A stretch of 64,000 bases of DNA from Perkinsus marinus ATCC 50983 (Eukaryota > Perkinsozoa > Perkinsida > Perkinsidae): contig NW_003216446.1 in the NCBI RefSeq assembly GCF_000006405.1, positions 239,043 through 303,042 of the forward strand. The letters run 5' to 3'. Numbering within the stretch: the stretch's first letter is position 1; each line of letters begins with the position of its first letter. The notes under the pieces are model-generated. The model did not search any database. It was not told the DNA's origin and was given only the letters and a program-made list of their open reading frames with translations. Positions 3,421-57,880 of the stretch are shown here, in pieces. The position numbers and the translations under genes are program-made.

Positions 3421-6400
3421 GATGCCTCGTGAGATTGTTACTCTTCAAGTAGGACAATGCGGAAATCAAGTTGGCAGCGAGTTTTGGCAACAGTTGTGCG
3501 CTGAGCATGGTAGGCTAGATGGGGACCTATTCCGTATCTTACCCGCTTGAACCTAAGATATGTTCGTCAGGTATCGACCCCGATGGTATCCTAAAGCCAC
3601 CTCCAGCCAACCAACCTCCTGCCGAGGACCGTAAGGATGTGTTCTTCTATCAAGCAGATGATGAACATTATATTCCTAGGTGAGGAGGTCCCTGGTTCGA
3701 ACCCTGGTACCGGCGCCTCTGTGGGATCTGTTGCTTTCTGTCGTAATGAACTTGAGAGCTGGGGAAATTCTGAGGTTCTCAAACCCTTGGGTGTAATTCG
3801 TGATCGAGATAGAGCGCTGAATCCGACAACAATTTGTTTTCCCTATTTACAGTTGAACAGTGTGGAAAATATGCGCACGTGTGTTGGTGATGATATAAGA
3901 ATTTTGAGGAGATTTTGGGAAATTATTGTTGATTTTTGTATACTTCTACCCTGAGAGTATAAATTCTCATAATGTAGCTGTGGAAGCTCTTGAGCTCAGC
4001 TGAGGAAACCAAACGTAGTATATTCCGACACTGCAGTTGTTGGTAACTCAATAACAAACTCGTCAACTACTGCTGTTGGTGTTGGCAAAGCCAACTCTTG
4101 TACTCGTTTTGAAAACATATTCAAATTCTTTCTCTCCAGGGCTCTTTTGATCGATCTGGAGCCCAGGGTTATCAATCAAATACAAACCTCCGAATTCAAG
4201 AACCTGTACAACCCAGAGAATATATACATGTCGAAGGAAGGAGGAGGAGCAGGTAGCGCGCGCCCGGATGATCGATTTGGACATGTGAGCTTAGGCAACA
4301 ACTGGGCTAAGGGTTACTCACAAGCAGAAGCAGTGCAGGAGGAGATCTGCGAGATGATTGATAGAGAGGCTGATGGCAGCGACTCGTTGGAAGGGTTTAT
4401 GTTGTTACACTCTATTGCAGGGGGTAGTGAGGGGGAATCTTGCACTCTTGCATTTCCTCAACGCTGAATGGACACTAGACTGTGGATTTATTCATAGCAT
4501 GATAGTGGAGATGTGTTGTCGAAGATGTTTGGTAGGTACGGGATCGGGCATGGGTAGCTATTTGTTGGAGACGCTATCCGATCGGTATCCGAAGAAGCTG
4601 TTGCAGACGTATAGTGTCTTCCCGATGCTCACTGAGACTTCTGATGTTGTGGTACAGCCGTACAACTCGGTATTGACGTTGAAGAGGTTAGGATATGGCG
4701 AAGGTGTGGTATGGAGACTTGTTGTTATTCAGGTTGGCATTAAATGCTGATGCGGTAGTGGTATTGGACAACACTGCTTTGAATAGGATCGCAGCAGATC
4801 GACTTAAACTCAGTAAGGGGCTTCGAGACACCTTGCTTCTATTGAAATCGAGTAATGTGTTTTATCGTTATGTTGGCTTTTTCGGGCCTGATCCGTATCA
4901 AGTTGTGAGCAACCTTGGATATTAATACCCATGACTTGTTCTATGGGATAGTCGCTTTTCTTTATCTCCTTAGCCACGCCAAGTTTCGCTCAAACGAATC
5001 AATTGGTATCAACAGTGATGTCAGCGAGCACAACCACTTTGAGGTGCCATTCGGACCTGTTTTGTATCTTGCCAGCTTCGACTTTAGATATCCCGGATAT
5101 ATGAATAACGATATGGTGTCGATAGTTGCTAGTCTGATACCAACACCAAGATGCCACTTCCTAATGACAGGGTGAGAGTCCGGTTGCATCCGTGTTCATA
5201 TGTGCACTGCACTAGTAGTTAAGAGGGTTAGTTATCTTTGCTTCTGCTGGAAAGGGCGCAGGTTCGATCCCTGGCTAGAGTATTTTCTGGTGCAGTTACA
5301 CTCCTCTAACGGCCAATACGTCCATCGTTCATCAAGCTCATTCAACCGTACGTAAGACAACCGTGATGGACGTTATGAGGCGGTAGGCAGGAAGGATTTC
5401 ACTTACTGCTTCGCTCCGCTCAATTTTAGTGCATTTTCAGACTCCTCCAGCAGAAGAATCTGATGGTTAGCGCGTCGACACGGAGGGGAGCTTATATATC
5501 TGTGCTGAATATTATTCAGGTTGAACGATCGAGATAATCGATCACGTGATCGATTTTGTTATTTACAGGGTGAAGTTGATCCGGCGTCTGTTCATAAGAG
5601 CTTGCAGCGCATCAGGGAGAGGAGGTTGGCTAGATTCATACAGTAGGCAGGTCCCGGGTTCGATCCCTGGTAGAGTTATTTTTAGGTGGGGTCCTGCCAG
5701 CATTCAAGTGGCGTTGGCGAGGCAATCACCTTATGTTCAACACGCTCATAAAGTCTCTGGACTCATGCTGGCTAATCATACTTCAATTAATACATTATTT
5801 GATAGGTGCGCTCACCAGGGATCGAACCCGGGACCTCTGTGTCGACAATTCCAAACAATAATACAATTACTTTGTCACTAACAATACTTTATATATAGTG
5901 GTAGATTGCTGCGCGCTCTCCTCGGAATTCGGTTTTGTATATCTTGCCAATTCTACTCCCTGGAGTAAGTTCAGATATGCAGTGTTTGCATCGTCAGGTG
6001 TCTGAAGCAATACGATAAGCTGAGGAGTAGAGGGGCTTTCTTGGAGCAATATCGTCAGGTCCGGGGATAGAACCCGGGTCGATCGATTCAGAAAGGACTG
6101 GTCTTAGGAATCGATATTTGCTGATGACTTGGAAGAGTTCGACCATGCCAGAGAGACTGTGGCTCAGCTGTCGGCTGAGTACGCTGGGGAACCGTCACGC
6201 GCCACGAAATTATCTACTCAGATATCGCGCTGCTGAGAAGGATGATTACATTACTGGTGGGTTCATGAATCAGACCTCAGCTGAGGTGAGGCCACACGAG
6301 GGGAGCGTTGAGATGAGATGAAGGAGTGGTATCGGTTTGCACCACTTTAAATTTCTATTTTATCTGATTTTGTGAAACGTGGATGTTCGTTGATCTAGGC

Positions 6401-6558
6401 TTATTCTGTATCTTCTAGACTTGAACCTAAGATATGCTCTTGTTTAGGGTGGTGGTGGTAGCAGCACTACAGTCGTCGACAACAGCACTTCGTCCCTCCG
6501 CATGGGTGGGCCACCACCACCTCCTCATCCTGACTCAGTGTCTGTAGGGGGTATGTAA
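3421..6558 (+). CDS. Gamma-tubulin (many small introns)
   Basis: Gamma-tubulin nucleates microtubules at centrosomes and basal bodies as part of the gamma-tubulin ring complex. The first exon (3421-3509) starts [16 protein letters not shown], the family's N-terminus. Later exons give the GTP-loop segment [16 protein letters not shown], then [59 protein letters not shown] and [17 protein letters not shown] infer at least ten introns, among them 3510-3570, 3680-4140, 4253-4294, 4424-4535, 5044-5087, 5643-5685, 6059-6107 and a 28-nt one at 6194-6221. The C-terminus runs KDDYITGG, matching the family's PDYISWG region, then a Gly/Ser/Pro tail if a last intron near 6286-6448 is removed (stop 6556-6558). 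Without that intron it stops at 6321. Identity is certain; exon edges were read by eye. Confidence 0.95.
3510..3570 (+). repeat. Intron repeat family D, copy 1 (gamma-tubulin intron 1)
   Basis: This intron contains the family core, roughly GACCTATTCCGTATCTT followed by CTTGAACCTAAGATATG. Related cores lie at 5044-5090, 5930-5981, 6399-6448 and 9360-9409. Splicing restores the gamma-tubulin frame (H-G-I-D-P-D-G). Confidence 0.8.
3862..3957 (-). repeat. Intron repeat family E, antisense copy
   Basis: This lies in the long second intron of gamma-tubulin. On the minus strand it reads GGGTAGAAGT, then ATCATCACCAACACACGTG, then GCATATTTT. The same blocks occur on the plus strand at about 9795-9885 and, more diverged, at 7430-7525, all between exons of neighbouring genes. 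Confidence 0.7.
4253..4294 (-). repeat. Intron repeat family A, antisense copy (42-nt intron)
   Basis: The whole intron is 42 nt. Its core is the reverse complement of the family A core CAAATCGATCATCAGGGCG. Removing it joins GGGA to [10 protein letters not shown], as expected for gamma-tubulin. Other copies are in AGO (24485-24532), DnaJ (31860-31913), the membrane protein (from 43981) and the gene at 54593-54640. Confidence 0.85.
4424..4535 (+). repeat. Intron with repeat family C core
   Basis: The core CTTGCATTTCCTCAACGC lies at about 4443-4460 in a 112-nt gamma-tubulin intron. It recurs at 8812-8833 and 54513-54533, and in reverse orientation at 31690-31743. Removing the intron restores [12 protein letters not shown]. 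Confidence 0.8.
5044..5087 (+). repeat. Intron repeat family D, copy 2 (44-nt intron)
   Basis: The intron carries GACCTGTTTTGTATCTTG and its own acceptor TTTAG. Splicing joins TTTLR to YPGYMNND of gamma-tubulin. Confidence 0.85.
5643..5685 (+). repeat. Intron made of a tRNA-like T-arm (43 nt)
   Basis: Between GTAGGC and TTTTTAG the intron is essentially CCCGGGTTCGATCCCTGG, a T-stem/T-loop with the Pol III B-box. Splicing joins ARFIQ to WGPAS of gamma-tubulin in frame. Confidence 0.85.
6059..6107 (-). repeat. Intron with a reversed tRNA-like T-arm (49 nt)
   Basis: The intron holds GGGGATAGAACCCGGG, a T-arm in antisense orientation to gamma-tubulin. Removing it joins LEQYRQ to ESIFADD in frame, where gamma-tubulins read LEQFRKE. 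Confidence 0.8.
6194..6221 (+). repeat. 28-nt intron, repeat family H
   Basis: It starts GTCACGCGCCACGAAAT and ends CTACTCAG. Removing it gives [13 protein letters not shown] at the gamma-tubulin C-terminus; without splicing the frame stops at once. The core GCGCCACGAA recurs in the intron at about 53478 and, reversed, at about 34265 and 43779. Confidence 0.7.
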
Positions 6559-6718
6559 TTAATCATAATCATCATCATCATATGTTTCCCTCTACTAGCA
6601 TTGTAGTAGTGTAGTCAATTTTATGGAACTTGGCAGCATTTCTAAAGGCGTAGCGGGATGTCGATGTAGGATTCACAGCGGAGCGAAGCAACTTTTTTTC
6701 TTCTCATTTTCTGCCGAT

Positions 6719-9700
6719 ATGGCTCCCACATACGAGTCTTTATCCCAATCCTTGAGGAGGAGCATTAACTGCTTAGTAGATGGGGACAGGCGACTGAGGA
6801 CGGAGGGGATCATAACGATAAAAAAGGGCATAGAGACGGCTGTTTATCAAGGTGGGTCGCAATCATCCGGACTAGCTACATGGCCTTGTCTCGTAGCTAC
6901 CGTATTGTTATCAACTCTTTTGTATATAGCAATCTCACCCTCCTGTAGTCGTTGAGTAGAATAGTGCACATGTCGTTACGATGAGTATAGCGGACAACCA
7001 ACTCGTGCGTGCCAACTTGATATGCAGATGTGAAGAATGTGCGTAATAATGATAGTGAACAAGTTGTCGCTATCATAGTCTCGAAAGGCTACTCTTATCA
7101 CATCACATTTTCATAGCAATGTTTACATTGTTTATGCGACTTAGTTTCTGATCGATTCTCATTAATCTCGAAAAACAACGTACATTCTCTTAGTTCGCAT
7201 ATCGAATTTGCACACATTGCAGAAATCGATAAGGAGGGTTTGACTTATGATCAGGCCAAGATGCGCTACCAGCTGTATCGCGGTTGTACTATGAGGACCT
7301 CTATAAGCCATTGATGAGGCTATTGACGGACTCTGTTGAGAAGGTGGGGACGTCGATAACATGCGACTGAAGGGATATGTCTCTGTCGTGTAGGAATATG
7401 TACTTGCTTTCCTCAGCTGAGTGCGGAAGATATTCGGGTAGAAGTTTACAGAAACCAATGAAAAATTCTCTAAATTTTCTCGCAATGACATATCTAGTTG
7501 ACCATATGCATATCCCTCCATACTGTTCCGACATCCTCTGTGGTGTGTTGCCTTCCTATGGTGACACCACAGAGGATATCAACCGGTGAATATTCTCATT
7601 AATATCTCAAGACTACCATAGTAGAGGAATTCATTAATTCAGTCGCACTTTGCAGCCTAGCTGTACAGTGCTAGAGGAATGTTGAGAGCGACTTCAACTT
7701 GCTTCTAAAAATGGTTATCAGCTACAGTGTAGAGGCTATAGTTGATGGGCGCCGGAAGGATCCTTCCTGGGAATTGAAAGCACTCTCGGTAGGTTCGCAC
7801 TGTGGCTGTTGAAGTGATGACGGAATTGGCGAACTTTTTAAACGTTGAGACGATCGAGGAGACCTCAACGGTACATTTTATCTCATACCACACCTTCGTT
7901 TCATCCTGTGTAGCAGCTGGTCGTTACCGGCATATGCAATCGTATACGCAACGGTCAAGAGTCTTCCGAGGAGCTCCGCTGTGAGCTGATATCACTGCTG
8001 AGGACCATCATCAGGCGGGCTCCCAGGTCGCCAGAGATTCATAAGCTTTCCAACGATGTGAGTGTGGGAAACAATCACCCTGCTGTAAACGCTGATCCGA
8101 GAGTTGGAACAGCTGAGCGAATCGTTAACAATTACAAGTCGCGAATGCAGTGGTGTGTTGTGGCACCGATTGGAGCTTCTTAGAGGAATTCCCAACACGA
8201 ACCTCATGCGAAGAGGAAGATCTTACTTGTGTAGATCTGTGGTCTACTACTACTGCCAACTTTGTCGAGTTGACGTTTAGATAATCGATACGTGTGGTAA
8301 GGCAGTAGAGGATCGTTGTCCTGATGTAAAGAAGGAAGCCTGTGAGCTAGTCAGGGTCGTCGTCAATGCAATACCAGGGGATAAGGTATACCGATAATAG
8401 TGGCTTGAGACGATATGCTCTTATAGGTACTGGGATGCTCATCAGCTCGAAACGACCTCGTTACGGCGTTGGTTCACATAACTAAGCATCAGCAGTGGAA
8501 GGTGGGGGAAGGAGGGGGTCCTCAAGAGAGCACCCGTTGAAAGGTCCGTCACCGAGCGGTCATGGCCATCACGGATCTCATGTTGGTCAAAGCAACGTTT
8601 AAGCTGAATCGAGGTAAGGGTAGGAGGAACCTTCGCTGTGCGATGCGAAGATACTCCCAGGTCCAGATTGTTTGATATCAGCAGGCCCGTCAGTGCCGCA
8701 GTTGTTGTTCTTTGCTCACACAGAGGAGGTCATCAACTCGGTTACAGGGGGTACAGCGCACGATGGACTAGTGAGAGATAGGAATGACAAGGTGAAATCT
8801 TGGAATCTTGCTATCTTGCATTTCCTCAACGCTGGTGGTAGGTGCGAGCTGCTGTTGTGGACATGTTGGAGAAGATTTTGGTAAATGGTGTGGAGATTGA
8901 TTGTGAGAAGTAGGGGGAGAAGGCGTATCTTTCGCACAGCGAAGATTCTGTATATCATGCAGTGTGAAGGCGATGATAGTGGGCATCGCAGGGGAAACGT
9001 CCGTTGAGGCTGAGGAGGAGTTGATAGCAACGCTGACGCCTGACTGGGAGAAGCGGACTCTGGCCCAGTTGATGGTTATGGCTGGTGATGAGAAATGTAA
9101 GGAGTATCATGATGATATGCGTAAAATATGTTGGTCTTGCAGTGTCGGCTCGAGCATTCGATGCTCTACATAGAGTAGCAGTCCGTAAGCGTGAGGGGTT
9201 GCTGGATCTAACGAAAGGGTTCGAGAGTGGCGCTTGTACTGCGTTGAGAAACTTCTTGACGATCCCTCCTCGCCCCAGTGACCTGCCAGAGGGTGGTCGC
9301 TTCGATGGGATCCGACCGATGCAGCGAGAGGAGGTGTGCAAGTCGGAGGAATCACGATGGTATGGGCAGGGATTGGACCTGTTTTGTATCTTGTATGTGG
9401 CGACCTCAGGTACGCATCTATTTTCGCTGAGTCGTTGATCCGCTTTGCTTTGAATGGCATGATCGAGTGGACAGCCTCCACTGGTATCAGAGAGCAAACG
9501 ATAAACATGTGCATAGTGAGTGGAAAAATGACGGTTCTGGGAATCGATCCTACGACCTCTTCTGTGGCAGGCAGTGATGATGATGATTGACATCCAGCAG
9601 ACCATCCCGTTCGTCGAAGAGCTCATCATCCATCTATACAAAGCCATCAGGGACGACGATGTTGATGCTGAGAAGAGAGTCACCCACGCTTGCCGTAGGT

Positions 9701-12526
9701 CCTCTATTTATTCCTCATGGGAGAGCACTCGGAGCACAGTATTGGAATTTTCGTTCACTTCCTTCAACTTCACTAATCATAGAAGAGCACATACGAATTC
9801 GGGTAGAAGTGCTCATAATTTCCTCAGAATTTCCATATTGTCATCACCAACACATGTAGTTGACCATGTGCATATTTCCCCCCTCACACTGAAGACAGCG
9901 TTTCGGATCAGTCGTCTTGTACCTATTAGGCATCCTGTTTGGAGTGGTTGTGAATCGACTTGGTGGTGAGTGCTTCGACAAGATAGTGAACACGATGGCT
10001 CAGCATGTTGGATGTGTGTTGGATGCGAAGAGAGAAGTTGCGCGTGCGTGCAGATTGCCATACCATCACATGGCCACATCGTGGTGTTTTTAGAGGATGG
10101 TAACTTCTGGGATGAGGAGAAGTTGGGGCGAGTGACGAGTCGAGTGGTGGGGACAGCGAGGACGATGAGTCATTACAGAGTGACTACTCGTGAGGGAGCT
10201 CAGGTGAGAGTCTGGTTTATGCGATAACTTTATGATGATGGGATAGCACCACACTGCAGTTGGGGTATAGTTGAGGAAGTAGGGGAGGAGTGGTATTGAA
10301 CTTCATCGAACGTCGTCCGTATGGAGTTCCACTTAACCTAGCTAATATCTTGGAAGCAATCGAGCATAGACGTGTGATCTGGATATAACTCGATGATAGT
10401 TTCGACAATCGGAGAACAAAGTGAAGCAATGTTCAGCCTAGTGCTGATACAGCACTCACTGGGGCGCGCGCCATTAGTACAAGGAAGCCTCCTATGGAGT
10501 GTTGATAGCGACCGACGGAACGGCGTGATCCGCAGGAGTGAGTATCCGTTTATCCACATCAGGACCTCCTTCTCCTATTGGGCGATGGTATCGAAGTCCA
10601 TGCGGGCCATAGTATCCGCACTGACGTTCTCTCTACCATTCTCGACATCATTCACACCTGCCTCACTATTTCGGTCGATACCATCAGTGGGATCCCTCGA
10701 GTGCTTAAAGGGATGCTCTATCTCGAGGCTGAGTCCCGGAAGGAGAAGGGCACGACAGGTGGGGTCTAGTCGAGTCTACATGGAGTTGGCCTCGATCAGT
10801 ATCGTATCCTTTTTCCAGGTCTAACAGATGCTCTCGTTACTCGTGTATTCAGCCTCCTATTGCAGTGCTTGGCCTCTTTGGAATCTTCCGAGGTCGCCAT
10901 AGTAGCGTTCTCTGTACATACCACTCATTCGCTACATCAGGTCGAGGAGTGCATATCCTTATTAGCTCTTCGAGAGGGAACTTCCCCAGCAGCTGTCTAT
11001 GATATGTATTTTGATGTTCAACTGGTAGGCGAGGCTTCGTCGGGTTCAATTCCCTTACCCGTTCAGTCGGGGATATTATCCGAAAGTATGCATGATAACT
11101 GGGCCGACTCCGACCCCACTCGGAAGATGCTGCATGAGCTATTGATCCGCAGCTCTGAAGAGAGCCTAGCGAAGTGTTTAAATGATGGGAAGGAGGAGGA
11201 GGGTTTGGGAGGACAGCTCATGAAGGTGAATCTTAGGTTCAAGCTCATATGATACGGATTAGGTTAGATGCTGTGCTACCAGTCGAATCCAGAACAGTGC
11301 ACACCGAGCTGCCGTGTGGATGTCATTGAGATCATTTACGACATCGCCAAAAGAGCCGCTGAAAACCGCGGGTGAGCCGACCAGTCGCCACTCCATCATC
11401 ATTAATATCAGGCCCCTACTGGATGCTTTGAAGGCTCACGGCATTGCTACTATTACGGAGCCTCACAATGTTGCTATCGGGTGTAGGTCGATCGTGGTTG
11501 CTGAAGTCGACTCTCCCACCACTCAGGTGTATCGGTCACCCTCGACTTGCCTATAGCATCCCCTCCTGTTGTCACTCTCCTCAGAGGAGTTATTCTCCCC
11601 AACTTGATTTGGCGACCAGGCCAGGTGGGTTTCCTATAGTCGAGGGTTAATGACCTCTTGGGTGTTTTAGGCGAATACGAGAATACGAAAGGCGACTCTG
11701 GTGGCCCTTCATGCACTATTCCCGGCTGTCGACAGCTGTTGGATGAGATTAATCGCGGAAGAGTTGGTATGGCCTGTTGAGGATCCTCCTCCCTCTGTGG
11801 AAGCCCCCGCAGTTACCTCTCGTGAAGAGCTGTCTAGATGATTCCTTCACCCCTGATAATCGTCATCTCGCCACCACTGTTGTTATTGATATATTTGAGA
11901 AGATGCTCGTGGACGGTGACCAGCATTGTGATGAGTTCGATGCGGAGGTCCTCAGAGAATGCTATCCCGATATGCTCAAACGCTTGGATGACAGTGTGGA
12001 CGAGATCCGGTGGGGAATCCAATGGGTGCGGCATTGGAGGACTCTTTCGTGTTTTGTAGGATATTATCGTGTCGAGCATTGGAGGTTCTGATGGGGATTT
12101 TGGCCAGCAGGCCGGGTACCATGAAGGCTCTGTCGAACAGCGTCTTTGGTAGATGACCCTATTGCTACGACTACCACTGAAGAGGCTCTTTAGGGTACAT
12201 CGTGCGTGCTTTATTCGTCCACTTGGACGACAGTAATATGCAGCTATCTAAAGCCGTGTATGCTACTTTGAGGAAGGTGAGGAGGAGATTGCGTGGAACC
12301 CATGACGGTGATGATGATGGTCAGGCGTCCATGGCGGGTGGGAGCGCATTCGAAGCGGAGGTTGATACGGCAGCTGCTAACTCTCTCCAACCTGACCTTT
12401 GCCTCTCCCTCCTCAAGAAGGAAGTATCGACATAAGGACATGTATCATGCTCATCTGTCTGATTCGAAATTGGTTGAGTTATCCGTTGTGGTCGCACTGG
12501 TGAGCCGATTCGAGACTGTTCCGTGA
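6719..12526 (+). CDS. HEAT-repeat dynein axonemal assembly factor 5-like protein
   Basis: DNAAF5 (HEATR2) is a cytoplasmic HEAT-repeat protein needed to pre-assemble axonemal dynein arms (family knowledge). The C-terminal exons are most diagnostic: YPDMLKRLDDSVDEIR near 11955-12010 and YIVRALFVHLDDSNMQL near 12197-12250 match human YPELLKRLDDVSNDVR and the LLVHLDDP repeat. The last exon has YRHKDMYHAHLSD, like the family's HKHRSATYC end. Upstream helices include LRCELISLLRTIIRRAP (near 7970), TPDWEKRTLAQLM (near 9040) and IPFVEELIIHLYKAI (near 9605). Introns are numerous and many hold repeats. The start MAPTYESLSQSLRRSINCL at 6719 opens with a HEAT-like helix; an in-frame ATG at 6623 is possible. 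Middle exons are incompletely resolved. Confidence 0.82.
7530..7578. repeat. Inverted repeat, 14-bp arms
   Basis: ATCCTCTGTGGTGT and ACACCACAGAGGAT flank a spacer of about 17 bases, in an intron-like stretch of the HEAT-repeat gene. Confidence 0.75.
8770..8838 (+). repeat. Intron repeat family C, copy 2
   Basis: AATCTTGC, TATCTTGC and the core CTTGCATTTCCTCAACGC lie between a GTGAGAG donor and a GGTAG acceptor. The arrangement matches the gamma-tubulin copy at 4424-4535. Confidence 0.7.
8925..8960 (+). repeat. Intron repeat family I, copy
   Basis: CGTATCTTTCGCACAGCGAAG followed by ATTCTG recurs at about 44347-44385 in another gene, and in reverse at about 8631-8657 (CTTCGCTGTGCGATGCGAAG). 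All three sit in predicted introns. Confidence 0.65.
9360..9409 (+). repeat. Intron repeat family D, copy (50-nt intron)
   Basis: GTATGGGC starts and ACCTCAG ends the intron. The core GGACCTGTTTTGTATCTTG is identical over 19 bases to part of the gamma-tubulin intron at 5044-5087. Confidence 0.8.
11025..11066 (+). repeat. Intron with a tRNA-like T-arm (42 nt)
   Basis: The intron contains CGGGTTCAATTCCCTTACCC, a T-arm-like stem-loop, between GTAGGC and TTCAG. Splicing keeps the HEAT-repeat gene in frame (FDVQL to SGILSESM). Confidence 0.75.
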
Positions 12527-15306: not shown

Positions 15307-15369
15307 ATGCCCTCAAGACTCTCAGTATCATCTTATAATATAAGATGATACTGAGAGTCTTGAGGGCAT
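15307..15369. repeat. Perfect 31-bp inverted repeat, one-base centre
   Basis: The left arm begins ATGCCCTCAAGACTCTCAG and the right arm is its exact reverse complement over 31 bp, around a single A at 15338. There are no mismatches, so it is either recent or maintained. No gene overlaps it. Confidence 0.95.
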
Positions 15370-20985: not shown

Positions 20986-22119
<1,134 letters not shown>

Positions 22120-45200: not shown

Positions 45201-47910
45201 GCTTTCTTACAATGGGCTGAGAAACATGGGCTCAAGGTCACCAAGCACTGGCGCTCTGTTAATTATGGTTGGCAGTTCATCCAAGCGGCACATTCCATAC
45301 AGTTGGCGGATATTAAGGTCTGGCTTAGTGGCCATAAATTTGGCATAATAGTAGACGAATCAACCGATATCTCGGTCACCAAACAAATCATTCTCTACAT
45401 CAAATCGAGGGGTCAGACACGATATGTCGGTCTCCGAGATATGCACGGTGATGGATCAGGTGAAGCCATAAAGAATGCTGCTGTGGGCTTGCTAGAAGCT
45501 TTACAGTTGCCGAAGGAGGATCTTATCTCGGTCACATCGGATGGGCATCAGCTATGGTGGGAGCTAAGTCTGGTGCGGGTGTCTTACTGGAAAACTGGTG
45601 CGGGGGCCCTTTGAAAAAAGAGCACTGTATAGTGCATAGGGTAAACCTCACCACGGGCGACGTATTCGACGCCAAGACCTGTACAGATGGTGATGTCCTA
45701 CGTATAGCAGCAGACGTGGAAGCTTGCGTAAGGAACAGATATCCATTTTCAACAGATCAACTTCGAATCGCGAGGAGCTGATTAATATTTCCAAACAGTA
45801 CGAGCGATTGCATATGCCGAGATCGTGGTGCGAGACAAGGTGGCTCTCTCGATATTCGGCCATGAAATCTCTGTGGCTCGGAAGACCCGCAGTCCTGGAA
45901 TTTCTCACATCGAATTTGTCACGTCGGTTCTCCAATGAAGCTGCTGTTATTCTTCGAATGCTCGGTGAGCAGTCAAACGACTTCGAGGGAGTGTTGGATA
46001 CCATGCGAATAGTTTACTTACTCTCGATTAGGCTACAGAAAGCCAATATGAACCTTTGTAGTTACTCGCACAATTACCCCGCACGTTTTACCAACGTGCG
46101 GATGCTGCGCTAGGCGACTTGATCGACGACATGGAGTCTGATGATGCCAGAAAATTCGCCGTGTTCATGCGCAAGCGCTTGCGCGCACGCATCCCAGCCA
46201 TGTCAACCGCCCAAGAGGCACAGGTACTACCTGTGTCTCTTGGGCGGCTGACATGGCTTCACATGTCAGGTACACGACTTCAGGCTCTTGAATCCGGATT
46301 CTGAGGCTGCTGGTAACCCTCTGGTTGGTAGCGTTTTTTCGAAAAAGCTGATCACCAGGGCCGCGCATAGTCACTGGTCTATCCATTCGAGGCACTATGG
46401 CTGCTCCGAGGAGGATTTCGTCACAGCATTCAAGAAGACCAACCGTCGTCTCTCTAGGCAGGCCCATGTGAGAAGGATTTATAATGAGCGGCTCCTTGAT
46501 ATAGAGCTCAAAGAGAAGCCTGACGACAGGCAGCTGAAGATCTACAGACTGGTATTGGAAATCGAGTCCTCCGTGGCGGTTGACTCCTGTGAAGCTGAAC
46601 GTGTGTTCAGCGCTTTGCAGCGCATCCGCTCAAAAACTAGAAATAGACTGCAGGGTGTCAACCTCGATGCCGCTATGTCGCTATCCATAAACGCGACCCC
46701 TGCCTGCGAGGAGGTGGTGAAAGTGTGGTCAACAATCAAGCCTCGTCGTAAGAAGGTAGCTGCTAAAAGGGCCACCAAAAGGGATAGGGACGGTATACCA
46801 GTCGCTAGCTCCTCGGATGAGGAAGACTTCGTGTACGACGATGTACTTTTCGAAGGGAACACCGACGAGGAATGTGACCCTATTGACGAGGAGCATGAAT
46901 ATAACCTTATGCTGCAATCTGGGTATCTCGTTTTGGAGGAAAGCGACGGGGAGTAAGTGAGCTATTTATATTGTTTGAGGGGCTTCAAGCCCAAGCCTCG
47001 GGCTCGATAATCAAGCCTTGGGTCTTAGCATGTGAACGCGATCCGAGGTGTGCGAACACCCAGCGCCGCTGACTCAGCATCCTTTTTTTGGTCGTCAGCG
47101 GTGTCAAGGTATCTCCGTGGCGAAGGCCCCGCCTGTCGGAATAAAAGTTTTCCCCTGAATATTTCTCTCGTTGTCAATCACGAGTCCCACTAGCATCAAC
47201 GGTGAGCCACATTAAATACATAACAGAGTCAACCCCATAAACGAACACATTCTAATATTCCGCGATCTCATCACGGGGTAGGGATTTTCCGTTTTCACCT
47301 CGATGACAAAGTATACCATTTTCCGCGCGGAAAATTGAAAATCGCTTACAGTGAACTCCTATTTCACTGTGAAATAGGAGTCCTATCGATCGAACTGAGG
47401 TCTCTCTCTCGTATCTTCCTATGCCGCACAGGGAAGGTTTTTTCCTCTCTTACAGGTTGGCGAGCTGTGAATGCCTTCGATGCCGAGGAGTGGGAAGCCT
47501 CATCTTCTCTGTTGGGATTCCTGTCGCAATTATGGGGTTGGGAAAACGTCCTCTTTCTGGCGATTTGTTATATTACGGGTGAGCGTGGGGTAGGAATATA
47601 TATGAACCTTCGATTCGGCTTGGGGAGGAATTGCACTGGCCAAATTTCCACCTTTCTGCTGCTGTGCAAGACTGTTTGTATAGTAGACGTATCTGTAATA
47701 ACCGCAGCAACATGTTATGCATTATTGTTGTTGTTGTCAGATCCGAGCAACACTCTGGTAGTGCTGTGTTGTCTTGGTGGCCTCATCTTGGAGCGAGTGT
47801 TGAGGGAGTGCCTCGATTTGTCTGTTAAAGGCGATAACATCAGCCGTCATCAGCAAGAGGAAGTTCGTATAGACAATCCTACTCTCAATCAAGCGTTGTT
47901 GTCTGCGTGA
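42268..47910 (+). CDS. Polytopic membrane protein, interrupted by a hAT remnant
   Basis: Not recognised. The start MPHRSFQPPAREQRPPPS is Pro-rich and precedes KRYVSRKPWAGILALM. Exons then give hydrophobic segments: QFVWPLALIPTLPCAYFTI (near 42920), KALSAALGLYPLFLGL (near 43040), AIGIMPSLALFASILVAVE (near 43535), YYSVVLVIISTEFTLVY (near 43625), IWGIILTGIFMGLLLT (near 43872), SYSVLLSMCVAVVLCV (near 44145) and LFLGVPYLPPYCSLSGALIL. A GTAAGT donor at 44349 could join an exon at 47455, and a final exon reads LVVLCCLGGLILERVLREC and NPTLNQALLSA-stop (47910). This would place the hAT remnant within a 3.1-kb intron. That the upstream and downstream parts form one gene is inference. Confidence 0.55.
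42590..42645 (+). repeat. tRNA-like intron element
   Basis: ACTAGACTCATGGGCGCGG leads into GGGTTCGATCCCCCGC and ends GATTTTCAG, a T-arm with B-box just before an acceptor, in an intron of the membrane-protein gene. Confidence 0.7.
43981..44027 (+). repeat. Intron repeat family A, copy in the membrane protein
   Basis: The donor GTAAGTTATT precedes CAAATCGATCATCAGGGCG and AGCGCGG, then the acceptor GGTAG. The core is identical over more than 17 bases to copies in AGO and at 54593-54640. Confidence 0.82.
44529..44755. repeat. Palindromes on the left flank of the hAT remnant
   Basis: CTCCTAT-G-ATAGGAG (44529-44543) and ACCTCGG-T-CCGAGGT (44741-44755) have one-base centres. CTCGCGGC-TCT-GCCGCGAG lies near 44571-44589. 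The transposase frame starts at 44838. Confidence 0.8.
44838..46956 (+). pseudogene. hAT-family transposase, decayed
   Basis: hAT transposases cut and paste DNA transposons. The N-terminal part has a possible zinc-binding module (CCGECLDHEASGKW, then SDLTDHEKAIQNGKH). The catalytic region shows IIVDESTDISVTKQIILYIK (the DEST-type first Asp), AMVGAKSGAGVLLEN, HCIVHRVNL and CETRWLSRYSAMKSL. The C-terminal hAT dimerisation segment is SCEAERVFSALQRIRSKTRN then RLQGVNLDAAMSLSIN, followed by an acidic tail. The gene needs at least three frame changes: near 45550 (one base missing before ASAMVGAKSG), near 45720-45780, and across a 61-nt hairpin at 46197-46257. It is therefore broken. Terminal inverted repeats and an 8-bp target duplication were not found by eye. 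Confidence 0.9.
46169..46257. repeat. Hairpins inside the hAT remnant: 16-bp palindrome and 30-bp arms
   Basis: GCGCAAGCGCTTGCGC at 46169-46184 is a perfect palindrome. At 46197-46257, 30-bp arms (outer GCCATGTCA, inner CACAGGTA with one substitution) flank one central C, with two mismatches. After it the transposase continues in another frame (VHDFRLLNPDSEAAGNPL), so the 61-nt unit looks inserted. Confidence 0.88.
46979..47381. repeat. Palindromes on the right flank of the hAT remnant
   Basis: These include GGCTT-C-AAGCC near 46981, a CGCTGAC/GTCAGCG pair near 47070-47100, TTTTCCGCGCGGAAAA near 47318, and a perfect 27-nt unit at 47355-47381 with 13-bp arms (ACTCCTATTTCAC) around one T. Confidence 0.8.
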
Positions 47911-49372: not shown

Positions 49373-50468
49373 TGGTCATGGATTGATTAATGATGTTCAC
49401 TTTGTAGCGTTATTGCGTTGAAGGTGCCAATCAACATAGGTATTATTGTCAGTGGTGATCTTGGAGGGAAGTGCCATTCTGCTATCTACTTCCCTTCGCA
49501 TCAAGGGGATGTGAACGATAGAGCGGAGCGAAACAGTTCATTAGTGACATTTTTGATCCTCAATTATCAGGTAGATCTTTCCCTTTTCGGGGGCTACTGG
49601 AAGATGAGTCACTTCCGAGCTTTGCGGGTTCATCCTGATTGATCTGGCTGTAAGCAGTGAGGCGATCATTTATATATGTGTGCTCGTATATGCAGGGTGT
49701 TTTAGAAAAGGTCCATTGTAATTACTCAGCGCATGTGTGTATCTGCCATCCCTCCCACTATGTATGCTTCTCTCCATATTATTATGACTCAGCGGATAGG
49801 TAGAGTATGGGAGGCACTCAACTAGCATTCAAAATGGCCTATCCTCGTCGTCTGCCTTACACTAATATTTACACACGCTGAGAAATTGCTATAGATGGCA
49901 TTTTTTTCCAACAACCTGCAAGTCCGGAGCAGGTGTTTAGCAGTATTATGATCTATTGTTAGTCATTCGGCGCTCTGTCGTAATCCCCATAGACAAGGGT
50001 CCGTCTTTGTGGCGATTGTTCCTGATACATGTCAACTTGGATTCTATGTAGCTTCCCAGCGGAGACCTTGCACGGAATTTAATTGCATTGTTGGAATAGT
50101 GAAGACTTCGAACGCCTTGTACCTCTGGGATACTACCGGCTCGCCTTTCCTAAAGTAGAGTATGGCATTCCCCTCACTGCTGCCTGACTTGGTGAGTTGT
50201 TAGTGTGGGAATAGAGGAAATTGGGACTGTTTCCCAGTGATGTCATCCTTTAGCATCAATCGATTCGCTCTATTGCTGTTGCAGTAACTCAATATCTTCA
50301 CACAGTAGTGATTCACTCCAATACTCATTTTTGTGCAACAGACTCCCGAAACCGCCACTTTCGCTCCGCTGAAAATCTTCTTACCTCGAGAGCGAACGCT
50401 GGAAACATCGCATAGGGAAAGGGTTGCATCTTGTTGGAGGTTTTAGATTTACCAGGACTAGTTTATAA
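49373..50468. other. Intergenic region
   Basis: No convincing gene. A frame at 49418-49642 contains a family B core (GAGCGGAGCGAAAC near 49520). A reversed family B core (TTTCGCTCCGCTG) lies near 50362. Confidence 0.45.
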
Positions 50469-52395
50469 TGGCAGAGCAGGCTGGGCTGACGATGGGCTCT
50501 AATGATGCCCTCACTACTGCGGCTACGATCACGAAGAGAGTTATAGACGAGCAGTTAGCGGTCCTGTCGGCGTAGGGCGTAGTGTTCGATAAGGCTCTGT
50601 TGAGGCATGCTTTGCATGTAGGTATCCTCAGCATTTGGTCACGGCAGCCCAAATGCCTGCTAAAATGACGGCGTTGGAGACCACGAGTAGTGACCTAAAA
50701 CTACAGGTGGCTTGAGCGTCGTAGCTACATCCTGCTATGTGGTGATCTTAGGTCTACACCCTAGACGCCCTGAGAGCCTGCCGGAAACTGTGGCGGTTGG
50801 CATGCGAACTCCACACTAATAGTTCCTGTATGAGGGTGGGTAGTGATCAGTTAAAGCCATTGGAGATCAGTGGGAGGTTGATGGTGGTCGAGGTAGGGAA
50901 AAGGTAGTGGGGGCAAGATCACTAGATTGATAATGTTAGCAACGAATATCCGAGCTGGAGGAGAAGTTGAGGGAATTGAGACGGTCCAAGGCTTCGTCGA
51001 ACGATGGTTTGGCTCATCAGAATATACGGTGAGATTGGAAGTAGAAGATATGGACCCATGTGGTGTCGTAGTAGGTTGAATGATGCCGATGATGATGATG
51101 CTGCTGTTGAAGTAGCAATACTACCAGATGGTCGAGGAGGTACGAATGGTGCGTAGTAGAAGTGGTGTCGAGTTACATTCAATTCACTGGGGGATGATTT
51201 TGCTCTTGGGTGGTGATCTAGATTTGATGACTTCCCGTCTCCGTATCCTTACCTCTACTAGTCGACGTGCCTTTGCAGCAAGTACTAGAGAGGAACTGCC
51301 TCGTGGGGTTTACCGTTCCTTTGAGAAGAATACCTCTCCTACTGCTGCTGGGGGTGGAGGAGGCGGTGATCAGCTGCCGACTGGGATATCCAGGGTCAGT
51401 ACTGGAGGTGGGCAGGTATGGCCAGGGGAGGGTAATAGGAGAAGGAAGGTGGTGGTGGAGGACGAGGATGTACCTTTGAGGGAGCTGCCTAAAGGCTTGG
51501 CCAGAGTGGGTAAGGAAACTCCCAATGTGAACCTGCGTCGTCCGTCTATGGTCGAGGAGGGTCCAAAGATGAGGTTGCCGAAAGGGTTACTAAAGGTGGG
51601 GGAGGAGGAGAAGAGAGCTGAACGGGGATTGCCGAGGGGTGTTACACCGATAAATTCAGAGAAATTTGGTATGGATGTGCAGACGACGGAGCTGCCACAG
51701 GGGCTCAAGAGAATCTCAGAGGCTCCAGTGAGGAAGGAAAAGTTGGATAATATTTCATTTGAAAGGCGGAGCGAAGCGATTCGCGAATCGGGGGATTCGA
51801 TTCAGCAATCCCAGGTCTACCATGGAACTATACCGGTAGTCCAACGACCCAGCATGTCTGGTGGGGTTATGATCACTCCAGTGGAAGGCAGTGAGTGGGG
51901 CGGGGGTTGTAGTCGTAGTAGCTGTTATGGCGTAGCGACGTTGTTGAGAAGGGGTTGTTGCACTGTAGGTGAGCAAAACCAACCGACGACGTTATCAGTG
52001 CCGAAGTCGACCAGGGAGGTGGAGAGTGAGGTCACGCCAGTTGCGGTGGAGATACTCAAAGTATACGTATCGGGCAAGAGCGAGGTATTGTTAAAATGAC
52101 GGGTGCGGGGATCGAACCGGGGTCCTTGGCAGCCCGGAAGGATCGTCATAGCCTTAAAGCAGCTGGCGGGCCATCATCAGAATGCTGAGGAGATCGAAGG
52201 CTTGGAGAGCCTACCTGAGTGAGTTCACATGCACGCATGCCCAAAGCTTTATAACTGATCGTTGTTGTTGTTGTAGATACCAACGTCTATTGGATGATAT
52301 GGGCGCTGCTTTGGATCTTGCAAGATTCTCCGGCCACGAAATATCCGAGATTGCGGAATACTTTCGTGTAGGATGCAGAATAGATGAATACCGAT
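50469..52395 (+). CDS. Hypothetical protein with repeated LP-x-G motifs
   Basis: Not recognised. A start-like exon reads MAEQAGLTMGSNDALTTAAT and VIDEQLAVLS. Later exons give a charged helix ISELEEKLRELRRSKASSND (near 50950), an acidic LNDADDDDAAVEVAILPDG (near 51080) and a long exon from about 51262. That exon holds six short repeats: ELPRGVYR, QLPTGISRV, ELPKGLARVG, RLPKGLLKVG, GLPRGVTPI and ELPQGLKRIS, spaced about 20-40 residues apart in disordered, charged sequence. Possible last exons read NAEEIEGLESLPE and LLDDMGAALDLARFSGHEIS, with VGCRIDEYR-stop at 52395. The repeated motif suggests multivalent docking to a partner (inference). Exon joins are uncertain. Confidence 0.5.
52080..52170 (-). 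repeat. tRNA-like element, reversed
   Basis: On the plus strand GCGGGGATCGAACCGGGGTC is a T-arm in antisense orientation. It is followed by further tRNA-like sequence (GGCAGCCCGGAAGG, then TAAAGCAGCTGGCGGGCC), between exons of the LP-x-G gene. Confidence 0.65.
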
Positions 52396-52990
52396 AGTTG
52401 TTGTATCGTCTTGAAGATACTCGGAGCCCCCGGGCTCACCAACCCGTCACGGCAGATGGCCAAGCGATTGAGTGTAAATCGAGATCGATCGAGGAGCATC
52501 CTCTGAGCTTGTTGTCATCAGTTCCAAATATGTGAACGTCTCCATGAGCTGTCACCTGTAGAGAGGATCCGTACCATCTACGTTATTACTACAGTCAGTT
52601 GGGAAGAGATCTCTATCGGACATTTCAAGGCTATTTTATAACGTCTAGCGGAGCGGAGCGATTTTTTTATTGGTTTTTTTCAGTGGATGGGACTCCGTCT
52701 TGATGATTACACTCATTGGGCCCTGCACCAATCGATTGACGCATGGATCGATTCTCCGGAGGTTGATGATGCTGCCGTGTTACCAGCGTTGTAGGAAATA
52801 TCGTTATTGGAAAAGCGAGGTCACGATGATGATGCTCCGGCAGGTATCTCCTCTGTGAGCCTAGTATGCGTAAGCGCAGCCATAAGGTCTTGGCTAAACC
52901 TAAGGTGGGGTACCGACGGCGGCGGCGGCGGCGGCTGCCCGTATCGAAGGGTGGTTGAGGTTATCTTAGGTATTCACACGTATGGAGGGT

Positions 52991-55195
52991 ATGGTTGATC
53001 GATTGGAAATCCATCAAGTTGTAGATATGGTCAGAGCCTTGGGGAAGTATGAGGCGCAGGTGAGGAATGGAAGTGTCACTAAATCTGCACGCATGCACAA
53101 TGTCATCAGAAATCTATCGTCAACAGAGCTCTGCAGAGGTTAGCTGCAAATCCTGGGAGGATACCTGACAGCAGTCTGCCTGCATTAGCACAGTTCTTAG
53201 AGTAGTTCTGAGGTCCCCGGTTCGAACCCCACGACCTGCACTTTTCAGCTCGACCGATCCGTCCAGCCCCGACATGTCGGCTGTAGCCGACTACGCCAGG
53301 AGGCGACTGTGCGCTATCGTTGCTGATGAAAGCGTAAGATTAAAGTGTGTCCATGCGTGCATACCACACCTCAGATAAATCGTAATGATGTCGCCCATCT
53401 TGTAGTCGAGCTCGCCAAGATCCCCACTATAGCCGCCGGAATCCTTGATGAGTCTGCTGAAGTGGGCCATGAGCGTCACTGCGCCACGAATACTCCCTTG
53501 GCAGATGATCCGCATGTCGGCCAACGTCCTCGATAAGGAAGTTATACCACAACTACTGCTACTGTACACTGCAGAAGGGGTATGGGGTCATCCTAGGGGG
53601 GGGAGTTTGCTCAGAGATCTTCCCTCAGCAACCGATGCATGAACTGGAGGTATCAGCGATGGCTAAGCTACGAGAACTGGAACCAAAAGGCGTTGCTAAG
53701 CTCTGCCTGGCAGCAGCCGCTGGAGGAAGTAGGAATCTTGTGCGCACAGGGAATGATACTTCATTGTTGATATCATCTTAGTGCGAGATAAGGAAGCATT
53801 GGTAGCCTCATATGGTGAGTGTTTGGATAGGGCCAGGAAATTCGAATCGGAAGAGTAAGGCAATCCTGGGTCTAACATTGCCACTGAAGTACCAGCTCGA
53901 ATATGCTTACTACCACTACTCCTGCTGGTCTACGTCGCTGCATTGTATGTTAGTTCGATGTTCTCTCTATCAGTTTCATAGACGCCTTTTACTCGATGAG
54001 TCTGGCTGGGTTAGTGAACGATGATGCCTTGGTAGAGAAGGTTGATATCGAGAAAGTAACCTCCTGTTGTGTATCTCCATCGTCTCCAACCTCTTGGTAG
54101 ATTATACGTCAAGCGCCAGTATCAGCCCTGCCTTCTCTAGCCTGGTCCTTAGTCGTATCTAACTTCAGCCGTCCACTACCTTGGAGTGTCCTATGTAAGC
54201 CTTTAGTGTAACTCTGCTGTTGGTTATGATGGTATCACAGGCTCGAGGATCGTACAAGACCCCTCTAGAGCAGTTGGTGATGATGTTGAATATGATGATA
54301 ATGGAATGTGTGTGAAGGGGGATCCACATCAAGCCGCAATACTGTAGGTTTATGAACGATCGGCGGCCTTGTGTGCATGTTCCAAGTATAGATACGAGGC
54401 GTTGGCTAGTGCAGCCACTTTGAAGTGGTTTGTGATTGATGAGCCGTCAGTCGTGGCTGGTATGGAGAAGTGGAAATTGGCTTGGCAGAGTAGGTTAAGA
54501 ATCTTGCACATCTTGCATTTCTTCAACGTTTAGGCTCACAGGATAAGGAAGATCCCCCCAGTCGGATGCAGTGGGAGGACATTCTCAATAAGGTGAGGAT
54601 TACACTCAATCGATCATCAGGGCGAGCGCTACCTGTTCAGTTGGATATATCCCACCGGATGAAGGTGGAGGTTGTTGGCAAGAAGTGGCCTCTATGGGAG
54701 GCGCCCATTGTGATGTCTGAACTGAGCTGTGTGATTGACGCTAAATTGAAGAAGTCCCAGATTGTGCATCACTACAGCGGTTTGACGACAGGCTCGGCGA
54801 AATTGAGGCATCGTATTTGGAATGCCAAGTAGGGTGGTAGAGCATAGTTACGTATTATTAATACTTGTCGTCGTTGTAGCGGGTATGCTGTGTTTGGTAT
54901 TGGTGATGATCAATTCCCTGATAATCATGGAGGTGCAGCATCTGATGCTAATTGTGACTTCCTGGCCGGCCTATTAGATATAGTAAGAGGGTTGATCTCC
55001 ATCACTCTGCTGCACTCTTGTTGTTGGTGGTTAGGTAGTAAAGAATCAACTCAACACACAGCGTTTGGCTGGTATAGAGCTACAGACAACAGAGCGTCCG
55101 AGAGGTACTCAGAATAGGAGACCAGGACAACGATCAGGGAAGATTGTCGATGTTGCCGCTGAACGGGCTAAGAAGGAAGCAAGATGGTTGCGGAG
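52991..55195 (+). CDS. Hypothetical helical-repeat protein
   Basis: Not recognised. Exons appear to include MVDRLEIHQVVDMVRALGKY, KSIVNRALQRLAANPGRIPD, SSLPALAQFLE, DYARRRLCAIVADESVRLK, VAHLVVELAKIPTIAAGILD, MIRMSANVLDKEVIPQLLLL and KLRELEPKGVAKLCLAAAAG. Further on come PVQLDISHRMKVEVVGKKWP, RYAVFGIGDDQFPDNHGG and a basic end, RAKKEARWLRR-stop. Repeated short helix pairs starting with KL or NV recall helical-repeat organellar RNA-binding proteins (FASTK/RAP, HPR), but the clear RAP signature is not seen. Introns near 53478 (family H core), 54490-54535 (family C core) and 54593-54640 (family A) are repeat-derived. One gene or two is unclear. Confidence 0.35.
53476..53505 (+). repeat. Tiny intron, repeat family H (about 30 nt)
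   Basis: It runs from GTCACTGCGCCACGAAT to CTTGGCAG. It shares GTCAC, GCGCCACGAA and its tiny size with the 28-nt gamma-tubulin intron at 6194-6221. Confidence 0.7.
54593..54640 (+). repeat. Intron repeat family A, copy (48 nt)
   Basis: From GTGAGGATTA to CTGTTCAG, with AATCGATCATCAGGGCGAGC inside. It is the same size as the Argonaute copy. Confidence 0.85.
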
Positions 55196-56020
55196 ATGAT
55201 GGGCCATGTTTCTGTTATGTTTCTAGTCTATACTACTGTTGAGCTGAGGGGAGGGGGAGTAGGAACCTATCAGGCCAGTCGATGAGGATTTAATAGTCTG
55301 TGCATGTTAAGTCAAGAAGCCGAGATTCTCAGGGACGCTAGGGAAGGCTGTATGACTGGTGGAATCAACTAGTGTTGAGGAAAGCTTTCAGAGAGGATGG
55401 ATTGGGGACAATATAGAGTTGTGGGCCGTCGCGGACATTCCTGCACAACAGTTTCTCCATGCGCACAGTGCATAGTTACCATGACGTCAACTGCACTACT
55501 CTTCCTGCGCCTTTAACATACCTCGATCAGAATAATAATAATCGATTCCAGGATCGACCCTGAGGTTTGGTCAGCATACAAAAAGTCCGCCCACTAGGGA
55601 GCTGTCCGTATAGGACGACGAGCTTGTGTAATCTCGCTCGCCCGATGTGGGCGTGCGCGGTTTACAAACAGCTCATAATGTGAGGGGGTTATAAAGGATT
55701 TTGCCAACTAGTCATTTGAGCATTCGGTTGCAGGTTTCGCCGAGTTGGAGAAACCTGGTGCCTCGCTCATCATAATCATCTATCTTCCTAGGGTGAATTA
55801 CGTTGCGTGATGAAAATGGATTTAGGGTTCTGGCTGGGTGGTTGTATATCACTTTCCAACTCTTTAACGGTTCGGGGATCTGCTTGCACGGTTATCGGCT
55901 TACAACCGAAACCTTTCGAGATGGGTTTTACGATTTCACAAATTTCAAGTATTCGGTTTTTTCCTCTCATTTTGTCCATCACTTGCTCGATGTAACTTAC
56001 CTGTATGTCAGTATATTATA
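55196..56020. other. Intergenic region
   Basis: A reversed tRNA-like T-arm (CAGGATCGACCCTGAGG) lies near 55551. Short frames at 55788-56021 lack motifs. No gene is supported. Confidence 0.4.
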
Positions 56021-56651: not shown

Positions 56652-57880
56652 ATGACTCTACCTCCTGGGTTCAAAGATAATCGTCCACAATGGTTGAAGA
56701 TAACCCAACCCTTTGTGGCAGGAGGTTTAGCTGGATCATTGGCAACCTGTGTCATTCAACCCGTTGACATGGTTAAAGTGAGATCAACCATAATGCCGAC
56801 AGAGAGGAAGGAGGAAGGCCTCATTTCTGATGTATCAGGTGCGGATCCAGATAGCAGAGGCGGGTACAACTCACAGTCCAGTGGCCATCGGTCGTAAGAT
56901 CATAGCTGATGAGGGTTTCTCTGGTCTCTATAAAGTAGTAGGACCAGAAGGGTCACCCTTCCACATCTGGTCTCAACTCTTCCTCTTATTGTTGTCAGGG
57001 TCTGGACGCCGGTATTGTTCGTCAACTCACATACACTACAACCAGGTTGGGAGTCTTCCGTCTGGCGTCAATGTCGTTACAAGCACCAGACGAGAAGACG
57101 CTACCGTTTTGGAAGAAGAGTGTTGCCGGCCTGTAGGTTGCCCTCACGTCGTTGCTCCCCATATCTACTACTCAGGTTTGCTGGTGGTGTTGGGGCATTC
57201 GTGGGCACTCCAGCGGACCTCTCCCTGGTTCGTCTACAAGTAACGGTCGCTACAGATCGGCGGATTAATATCACCATCGTTGTCGTCGTTTAGGCTGATG
57301 CAACTCTGCCTGCAGCCGAGCGACGTAATTACAAGGGGGTTTTCGACGCTATGAGGCAGATTGTCAAAACCGAGGGGGTTACTGGTCTTTGGAAAGGCTC
57401 TCTACCGACCGTTACTCGAGCCATGGCACTTAATGTTGGCATGTTGGCTACTTTCGATCAGGTAGTTGTGGTCATAGTAGTAGTATCATCCAATTTGTTG
57501 GTCCCTCAGGGGAAGGAGTATTTTGGGCATCTTATGGGCCCAGGATGGGGCGCAACATTAACGGCATCAGCATGTTCAGGGTTCGGGGCCTCAGTCATGT
57601 CACTTCCCTTCGATTTTGTCAAGACTAGAATTCAGAAAATGAGACCGGATGCTAATGGGGTCATGCCGTACACTGGTACTCTCAATTGTTTTGCCAAGGT
57701 AAGGGAGATTCCTGGTTCGATTCCTGGTCATGACATTTCTGTCAGGTCCTCCGTGATGAAGGACCATTAGCCTTTTACTCGGGTTTCCCAACCTACTATA
57801 CTCGTATTGCCCCACATGCCATGTTAGTTCTGCTACTTGTTGACATGATTAACACCTCAGTGGTGAGGTCATTCGCTTGA
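56652..57880 (+). CDS. Mitochondrial carrier, oxoglutarate/malate type (SLC25A11-like)
   Basis: These inner-membrane carriers exchange 2-oxoglutarate for malate. The start MTLPPGFKDNRPQWLKITQP leads to FVAGGLAGSLATCVIQPVD with the first PxD signature, then IGRKIIADEGFSGLYK. After an intron come RQLTYTTTRLGVF and GGVGAFVGTPADLSLVRLQ (second signature), NYKGVFDAMRQIVKTEGVTG, LWKGSLPTVTRAMALNVG, ACSGFGASVMSLPFDFVKTR (third signature), YTGTLNCFAK, VLRDEGPLAFYSGFPTYYTR and IAPHAMLVLLLVDMIN. TYTTTRLGVF and RAMALNVGML are typical of the oxoglutarate carrier branch. The intron at about 57697-57745 carries a tRNA-like T-arm. Confidence 0.94.
57697..57745 (+). repeat. tRNA-like T-arm intron in the mitochondrial carrier
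   Basis: GTAAGGGAGATTCC starts it and CTGTCAG ends it. The middle is TCCTGGTTCGATTCCTGG. Splicing joins TLNCFAK to VLRDEGPL. Confidence 0.85.

Follow-up and report, generated by a model that had tools for sequence, protein, structure and literature searches.

Intron gain in eukaryotes is an old problem, and the introners known so far are often linked to transposons. The portions of Gozashti et al. (2022; PMC9860276) drawn on here describe intron families that recur across unrelated genes, with family median lengths from 30 nt; insertion in the same and in the opposite orientation is considered, target-site duplications are given for 49 of 130 assessed families and terminal inverted repeats for 72 of 177, and membership calls for an all-against-all BLAST E-value of 1e-5 or better and for similarity extending, in both introns of a pair, to within 10 intronic bases of both boundaries. 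From Amoebophrya, the corresponding portions of Farhat et al. (2021; PMC7789003) report introner elements that form mainly non-canonical introns, averaging 120 nt in one strain and 240 nt in another, that carry 8–20 nt inverted repeats and 3–5 nt direct repeats at the boundaries. Here we describe a 64,000-nt stretch of the Perkinsus marinus ATCC 50983 genome (the window; contig NW_003216446.1, hereafter C333, positions 239043–303042), in which introns of unrelated genes, including all 14 introns of gamma-tubulin, share the cores of short dispersed repeats. These are probably introner-like elements of a very short kind, each copy having created an intron upon insertion into an exon.

Introns were located by spliced alignment of homologous proteins against the DNA. 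For gamma-tubulin (window 3300–6700), each of three homologous proteins (77–80% identity) gave the identical set of 14 GT-AG introns; an 18-nt gap at 5319–5336, present with all three homologues, was left out of the intron set. Alignment of the P. olseni protein to SYF1 (C333 ~136–141 kb; 93% identity across the aligned residues) gave 23 introns, one of them non-canonical and exchanged for the GT-AG solution given by a second homologue; the predicted SYF1 protein is 83% identical to P. olseni SYF1. PPDC (putative phosphonopyruvate decarboxylase; C333 ~182–184 kb) has 11 introns with the P. olseni protein (91% identity) and 10 with each of two other Perkinsus proteins, one boundary or intron being shifted. 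The validated set thus comprises 48 GT-AG introns in three unrelated genes, the shortest measuring 42 nt, and protein continuity across the junctions suggests that they are spliced in the cell.

To define repeat families, position weight matrices were derived from intron pieces that recur in the window and in the 200 kb upstream of it, with iteration against shuffled sequence. The matrices yielded families A (GGACCTNATCCGTATCTT..AACCTAAGATAC, 39 bp), T (AGGTC...GGTTCGATCCC...CATTTT), C, D, F, and P; families G and H were added afterwards from frequent 9-mers, with seeds that came partly from SYF1 introns. Where a first-pass annotation of this DNA had proposed at least five families, the present count is at least eight, all short and dispersed, with cores of ~20–39 bp. 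At a threshold corresponding to a 5% chance of one false match per family over the whole intron pool, a core was present in 27 of the 48 validated introns (all 14 in gamma-tubulin and 13 of the 34 in SYF1 and PPDC), as against a mean of 0.3 and a maximum of 1 of 48 after shuffling (20 rounds); the exons of the validated genes gave two core matches in 5,321 nt. The cores are real, well beyond chance, and the earlier claim that introns of unrelated genes share them holds. T and A are common to introns of gamma-tubulin, SYF1, and PPDC, five T copies lie within one validated gene, and C, D, and F occur in predicted introns of several genes, so that at least four introns in unrelated genes share sequence, the number asked for in PMC9860276. 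Among predicted introns generally, 175 of 630 had a partner scoring at least 30 bits versus 15 of 630 shuffled introns. Partners were also found for 93 of 601 exon pieces and 119 of 612 intergenic pieces, and these arise at least partly through duplicated genes.

Along gamma-tubulin (plus strand), family T is found in sense near the 5′ end of intron 2 (3680–4139, 460 nt; element at 3686–3707), together with its T run in intron 8 (5172–5295, 124 nt; ARAGORN calls a tRNA-Gln at 5208–5283, Rfam none), and in intron 11 (5643–5685, 43 nt), which ends in TTTTTAG and leaves 8 nt outside the element. It is antisense in intron 12 (5806–5997, 192 nt) and intron 13 (6059–6107, 49 nt; shortened at the T-run end). 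Family A occupies 3532–3560 in sense within intron 1 (3510–3570, 61 nt; by spliced alignment), is degenerate at 4893–4921 in intron 6 (4813–4973, 161 nt), and recurs in intron 7 (5044–5087, 44 nt), where the 3′ splice site TTTAG falls within the element and, again, 8 nt are left over. The other introns harbor C (sense, 4255–4280 of intron 3, 4253–4294, 42 nt), D (sense; intron 4, 4424–4535, 112 nt), H (intron 5, 4687–4732, 46 nt; a short 18-bp core of the weakest family), G (antisense; intron 9, 5383–5440, 58 nt), the palindrome of family P (intron 10, 5520–5568, 49 nt), and F (intron 14, 6179–6221, 43 nt). Intron 2 also contains, at 3858–4034, a separate dispersed repeat of ~110–185 bp, of which at least 39 further copies (72–83% identity) are spread over many contigs.

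Intron length bears directly on how the cores got there. The 16 validated introns with an A or T element measure 43, 44, 49, 49, 49, 50, 50, 53, 59, 61, 63, 88, 124, 161, 192, and 460 nt; in 11 of them, those of at most 63 nt, only 8–27 nt lie outside the element, in keeping with the first-pass description of many introns as little more than the repeat, and in four of these 11 the intron boundary cuts the element short by 3 to 6 nt. The median length of validated introns is 50 nt with a core versus 51 nt without, and that of predicted introns 70 nt (n = 99) versus 68 nt (n = 656). An existing intron that receives an element should be longer by the element's length; near-equal medians and leftovers of 8–27 nt therefore disfavor insertion into older introns.

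The elements lie in either orientation. Sense and antisense copies number 15 and 12 for T, 8 and 6 for C, 6 and 7 for F, and 3 and 14 for A in predicted introns, and 4 and 2 for A and 7 and 3 for T in validated ones. In sense T copies, the T run stands immediately 5′ of the acceptor, as in 5643–5685 (TTTTTAG), 53202–53248 (CTTTTCAG), and the SYF1 intron at 136860 (ATTTCAG). In family A, the cut falls at GGATNAG/GT in antisense copies (SYF1 138873–138922; predicted intron C333 18408–18452) and at TTTAG/ATA in sense copies (5044–5087 and PPDC 183584). Since both orientations occur, the splice sites would be recruited from element ends and flanks rather than follow one fixed design. In some short A and T introns (such as 5643–5685, 11226–11267, and 53202–53248), the shared sequence reaches roughly to within 10 intronic bases of both boundaries; others have longer flanks. 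An RNA folding excess was small (mean z of −0.27 with an element versus 0.01 without), and with scores so nearly equal a hairpin function was set aside.

Family T deserves a closer look for its likeness to tRNA. It starts like a tRNA variable loop (AGGTC) and contains a B box, with a terminal T run ~eight bases beyond the stem; it spans 30–35 bp to the end of that run, most copies beginning at the variable loop. A variable loop followed by a B box and a T run is the geometry of a tRNA 3′ end plus an RNA polymerase III (Pol III) terminator. Across 44 matrix matches, which include a real tRNA-Arg, the two B-box pairs of the T stem are kept in 89–100% and the outer three pairs in 41–61%. The label 'tRNA-derived' in the first-pass annotation was therefore half right: T retains the AGGTC, the B box, and the T run but not the outer T stem, and it is B-box-like rather than a working tRNA. 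Rfam, with 63 of 4,410 first-look candidates scored in the tRNA family search, found one tRNA in the window (tRNA-Arg, 37955–38028) and recognized none of the intronic T copies, nor did these show a full cloverleaf. An A-box-like stretch can be made out by eye upstream of ~3 T copies, for example in the 88-nt SYF1 intron, the B box being present in all by construction; in most copies, no A box and no intact T stem were seen. Descent of T from one known tRNA was considered and rejected, the best match having a median of 20 of 30 nt against 20 tRNA loci (with the frame off by one for some). A spliced-leader origin of family A (compare PMC9399869, consulted in part) was likewise dropped, the resemblance being partial and by eye only.

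Beyond the window, we searched 54.5 Mb in 347 contigs. Strict patterns for T, A, C, D, and F matched the two strands 251 + 247 = 498 times for T, 68 + 57 = 125 for A, 62 + 57 = 119 for C, 160 + 191 = 351 for F, and, at no more than one mismatch, 173 + 143 = 316 for D, with 0 reversed-control matches for each family. These counts include haplotype copies: contigs C52 and C69 carry several T and A matches in corresponding order. With the ratio of matrix to strict matches in the sample as scaling factor, a rough guide built on 3–15 strict matches, T, A, C, and F come to ~500–2,300 copies; density gives estimates that are too high, the sample contig being richer than the average of the genome. Matrices made from window copies were run over the 200 kb upstream of the window and over five tiles taken from other contigs, with 28 matches for A, 40 for T, 12 for C, 4 for D, 22 for F, and 8 for P, where ~1 per family was expected. 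The tiles, chosen around A matches, favor that family, and the selection of the window copies had itself relied on matrices refined with pooled sequence. Under crude ab initio gene models, core density was 1.53/kb in introns (118 in 76.9 kb), 0.43/kb in intergenic sequence (45 in 105.5 kb), and 0.26/kb in exons (27 in 102.9 kb), some of these 'exon' matches being introns absent from the gene model (shown by homology at 3686 and by eye at 57706). Some copies are located outside predicted genes; that at 40360, for instance, is flanked by a divergent pair. In addition, A and D occur as head-to-tail tandem arrays, with a 47-bp period on C304 (L007) and a 57-bp period at C52:52131–52490, respectively, and F is repeated inside a predicted intron at C333 25304–25410.

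How might such elements make introns? Repeats of ~20–39 bp from several families would enter exons in either orientation, every copy turning, with a few adjoining bases, into a spliceosomal intron of typically ~42–60 nt, whose splice sites would be supplied partly by the element and partly by the element's edges. In sense T copies, the Pol III-type T run would furnish the stretch before the AG, at the position of a polypyrimidine tract; in some A copies, the acceptor AG would come from inside the element. Creation by insertion is likely, and we infer that the insertion took place at the DNA level. T might have been dispersed by reverse transcription of short Pol III-type transcripts, given that reverse transcriptase domains are abundant in the genome (149 RVT_1 matches, many within long open frames). 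One can go further and suppose that fragments of Pol III-type transcripts (tRNA 3′ ends that begin at the variable loop and stop at the terminator), along with other RNAs of 20–40 nt, were reverse-transcribed into exons to yield minimal introns, with the terminator serving as polypyrimidine tract. We regard this RNA-fragment route as rather doubtful; if true, introns would be gained without transposon ends, and most introns of some genes would have this source.

Several observations weigh against creation by insertion, some of them concerning the counts themselves. The 27 of 48 rests on matrices trained partly on the same introns. When matrices were rebuilt from window copies only, 13 of the 34 SYF1 and PPDC introns matched (shuffles: mean 0.48, maximum 2 in 50 rounds; exons: 2 of 35), a set that differs by two introns from the 13 found with the pooled matrices. 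Even this number is not fully independent, the window copies having been chosen by the pooled matrices, and four of the 13 introns depend on G and H; as these two families were seeded partly from SYF1, the lower count of 9 of 34 applies when they are omitted (shuffles: mean 0.18, maximum 2; exons: 2 of 35). A and T alone give 7 of 34 (shuffles: mean 0.14, maximum 1; exons: 1 of 35). The short core of family H could be a splicing signal, and without the four introns that have H only, a core remains in 23 of 48. Furthermore, 21 of the 48 validated introns are without a recognized core, and 15 of these measure at most 60 nt (one of the 15, PPDC 183152, resembles a decayed antisense T by eye); an element is thus not required for a short intron. 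Nor does core length set intron length: cores of C and F, 24–26 bp long, occur in predicted introns of 42–69 nt (among listed introns up to 75 nt).

Signs of mobility, too, were wanting. Compared with permuted flanks, A, T, C, and F gave no signal of target-site duplication. No presence/absence difference was seen in the haplotype pair C52/C69 (L039/L040), which shares T copies wherever both are readable; its blocks are 97.8% (1.7 kb) and 99.7% identical, C69 has more copies where C52 reads N, and both haplotypes appear to be represented in parts of the assembly. There was no empty site in a duplicated block of 88–93% identity (L031/L033), no family match in 90 gap segments of C333 self-duplicates, and no clean presence or absence of an element in searches for large-block paralogues, where the only long duplicates in one search were those of a transposase-like gene and the strongest in another were GAPDH relatives. 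Given the divergence of the copies, there is no sign of recent activity, and head-to-tail arrays as formed by A and D are not expected of introners. Age may partly explain why duplication, folding, and empty-site signals are absent, and target-site duplications could possibly have been lost by decay, the copies being old. The idea that elements insert and become introns is thus favored by leftover lengths and mixed orientation and lacks target-site duplications and presence/absence differences in the blocks compared.

Could ordinary repeats instead have landed in introns that were already there and that later shrank to 42–60 nt? Some cores do sit within long introns (112–460 nt) that could predate them, copies exist in intergenic sequence, and the core-less introns fit as well; but introns that bear an element are no longer than others, the leftover in 11 of 16 A and T introns is below the length of any validated intron, and trimming would have had to recur around a mostly intact element. 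We consider this explanation unlikely. That the cores are functional motifs—sites for transcription factors, TFIIIC, or splicing, kept or regained rather than inserted—would account for a T family that holds on to its B box and T run but not its stem, and for copies between predicted genes such as that at 40360. What makes it improbable is the number of families (at least eight, with lengths up to 39 bp), their occurrence in both orientations and, for three, also in tandem arrays, the five T copies in a single gene, and the lack of a clear folding signal.

Still further down the scale, introns might have been copied as RNA and reverse-spliced into other transcripts, spreading as whole introns. 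The shared sequence of some short introns indeed reaches near both splice sites; such a route would, however, preserve sense orientation and intron ends, whereas both orientations are common and flanks differ, and we deem it very improbable. An artefact of gene prediction or chance similarity of motifs is just as hard to credit. The gene finder is admittedly crude, and looser settings were dropped for over-prediction, having recovered 7 of the 14 known gamma-tubulin introns. Against this stand 48 introns placed by protein homology at 77–93% identity, the empty reversed controls for five patterns in 54 Mb, and positive tests on other sequence. Very short introner-like elements that create introns by insertion into exons thus remain the best reading.

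The same cores recur in other genes of the window, in predicted introns or introns placed by eye, much as the first-pass annotation had it for the DNAAF5-like, DnaJ, membrane-protein, and mitochondrial carrier genes. Of its gene names, Pfam supports DNAAF5-like, DnaJ, and mitochondrial carrier, while Argonaute stays unconfirmed, a hand-cut draft of that region having no Pfam match. On the plus strand, the ab initio model of the DNAAF5-like gene has a predicted intron with family D (8771–8841) and a predicted 42-nt intron that is family A antisense almost end to end (11226–11267). A candidate 49-nt GT..AG intron with T antisense (44463–44511), identified by eye outside the gene model, lies close to where the membrane-protein gene ends. 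The gene at 50468–55372 has predicted introns with T antisense (52085–52132, 48 nt), T sense (53202–53248, 47 nt), D (54490–54533, 44 nt), and C antisense (54593–54640, 48 nt), and the mitochondrial carrier gene has a 47-nt intron with T sense (57699–57745), seen by eye and absent from the gene model. On the minus strand, a predicted 49-nt intron of a CEP104-like gene carries T antisense (19540–19588), and predicted introns of the DnaJ gene carry D (31663–31743) and C (31860–31913, 54 nt).

The window has other features of its own. An intronless GAPDH gene (21109–22111) has ten long genomic matches at 75–77% DNA identity, and a single-exon predicted protein with repeated cysteine-rich units and a YCKWW motif (26844–28577) resembles a predicted gene at C333 4626–6534. 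The transposase-like gene (44538–47358), hAT-like by eye, has long partial copies on other contigs at 98%, 92%, and 90% identity. A dispersed repeat at 7005–7220 has at least ~30 copies, most at 76–92% identity and many on contigs C51 and C77; palindromes with arms of ~31–32 bp and a loop of ~one base lie at 15307–15369 and 46195–46259, and a GTA microsatellite of 21.7 copies at 2289–2353.

Gamma-tubulin, a conserved gene, thus has a short repeat core in every intron, drawn from at least eight families of which one is tRNA-like. If our reading is right, elements too short for the usual screens to notice can drive intron gain, here in a member of Perkinsozoa, a phylum of parasites for which the literature searched contained no report of introners. 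That search, subscription papers aside, returned for introners and Perkinsus only the Amoebophrya report and no introner report tied to tRNA-derived elements; among the listed papers on Perkinsus introns and genomes, none concerned such elements, judging by title and beginning of the abstract; 'Perkins' is absent from the main text of PMC9860276, supplement aside. Proteins of the sister species P. olseni and P. chesapeaki are public on contigs.

Set beside tRNA-derived SINEs (short interspersed nuclear elements), which carry the Pol III promoter boxes A and B, family T is alike in its B box, AGGTC, and terminator-like T run, and in an A-box-like stretch seen by eye in a few copies; it differs in that the majority of copies begin only at the variable loop, and neither an A box nor an intact T stem was seen in them. 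Set beside miniature inverted-repeat transposable elements (MITEs) and DNA transposons, A, T, C, and F gave no target-site duplication signal; family A has an inverted repeat inside the element, and P is a palindrome (both by eye). Compared with Amoebophrya, a parasitic alveolate related to perkinsids, P. marinus likewise has repeated introns, yet these are GT-AG introns, mostly of ~42–60 nt, with no direct-repeat signal, as far as the portions of PMC7789003 drawn on allow the comparison. Measured against the equivalent portions of PMC9860276, the P. marinus cores are ~20–39 bp and diverged, such that pairs would rarely reach an E-value of 1e-5, and similarity extends to within 10 bases of both ends in some introns only; like most of the families assessed there, A, T, C, and F show no target-site duplication, and, like the introners described there, the P. 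marinus elements form intron families that span unrelated genes, with copies in both of the orientations considered in that study.

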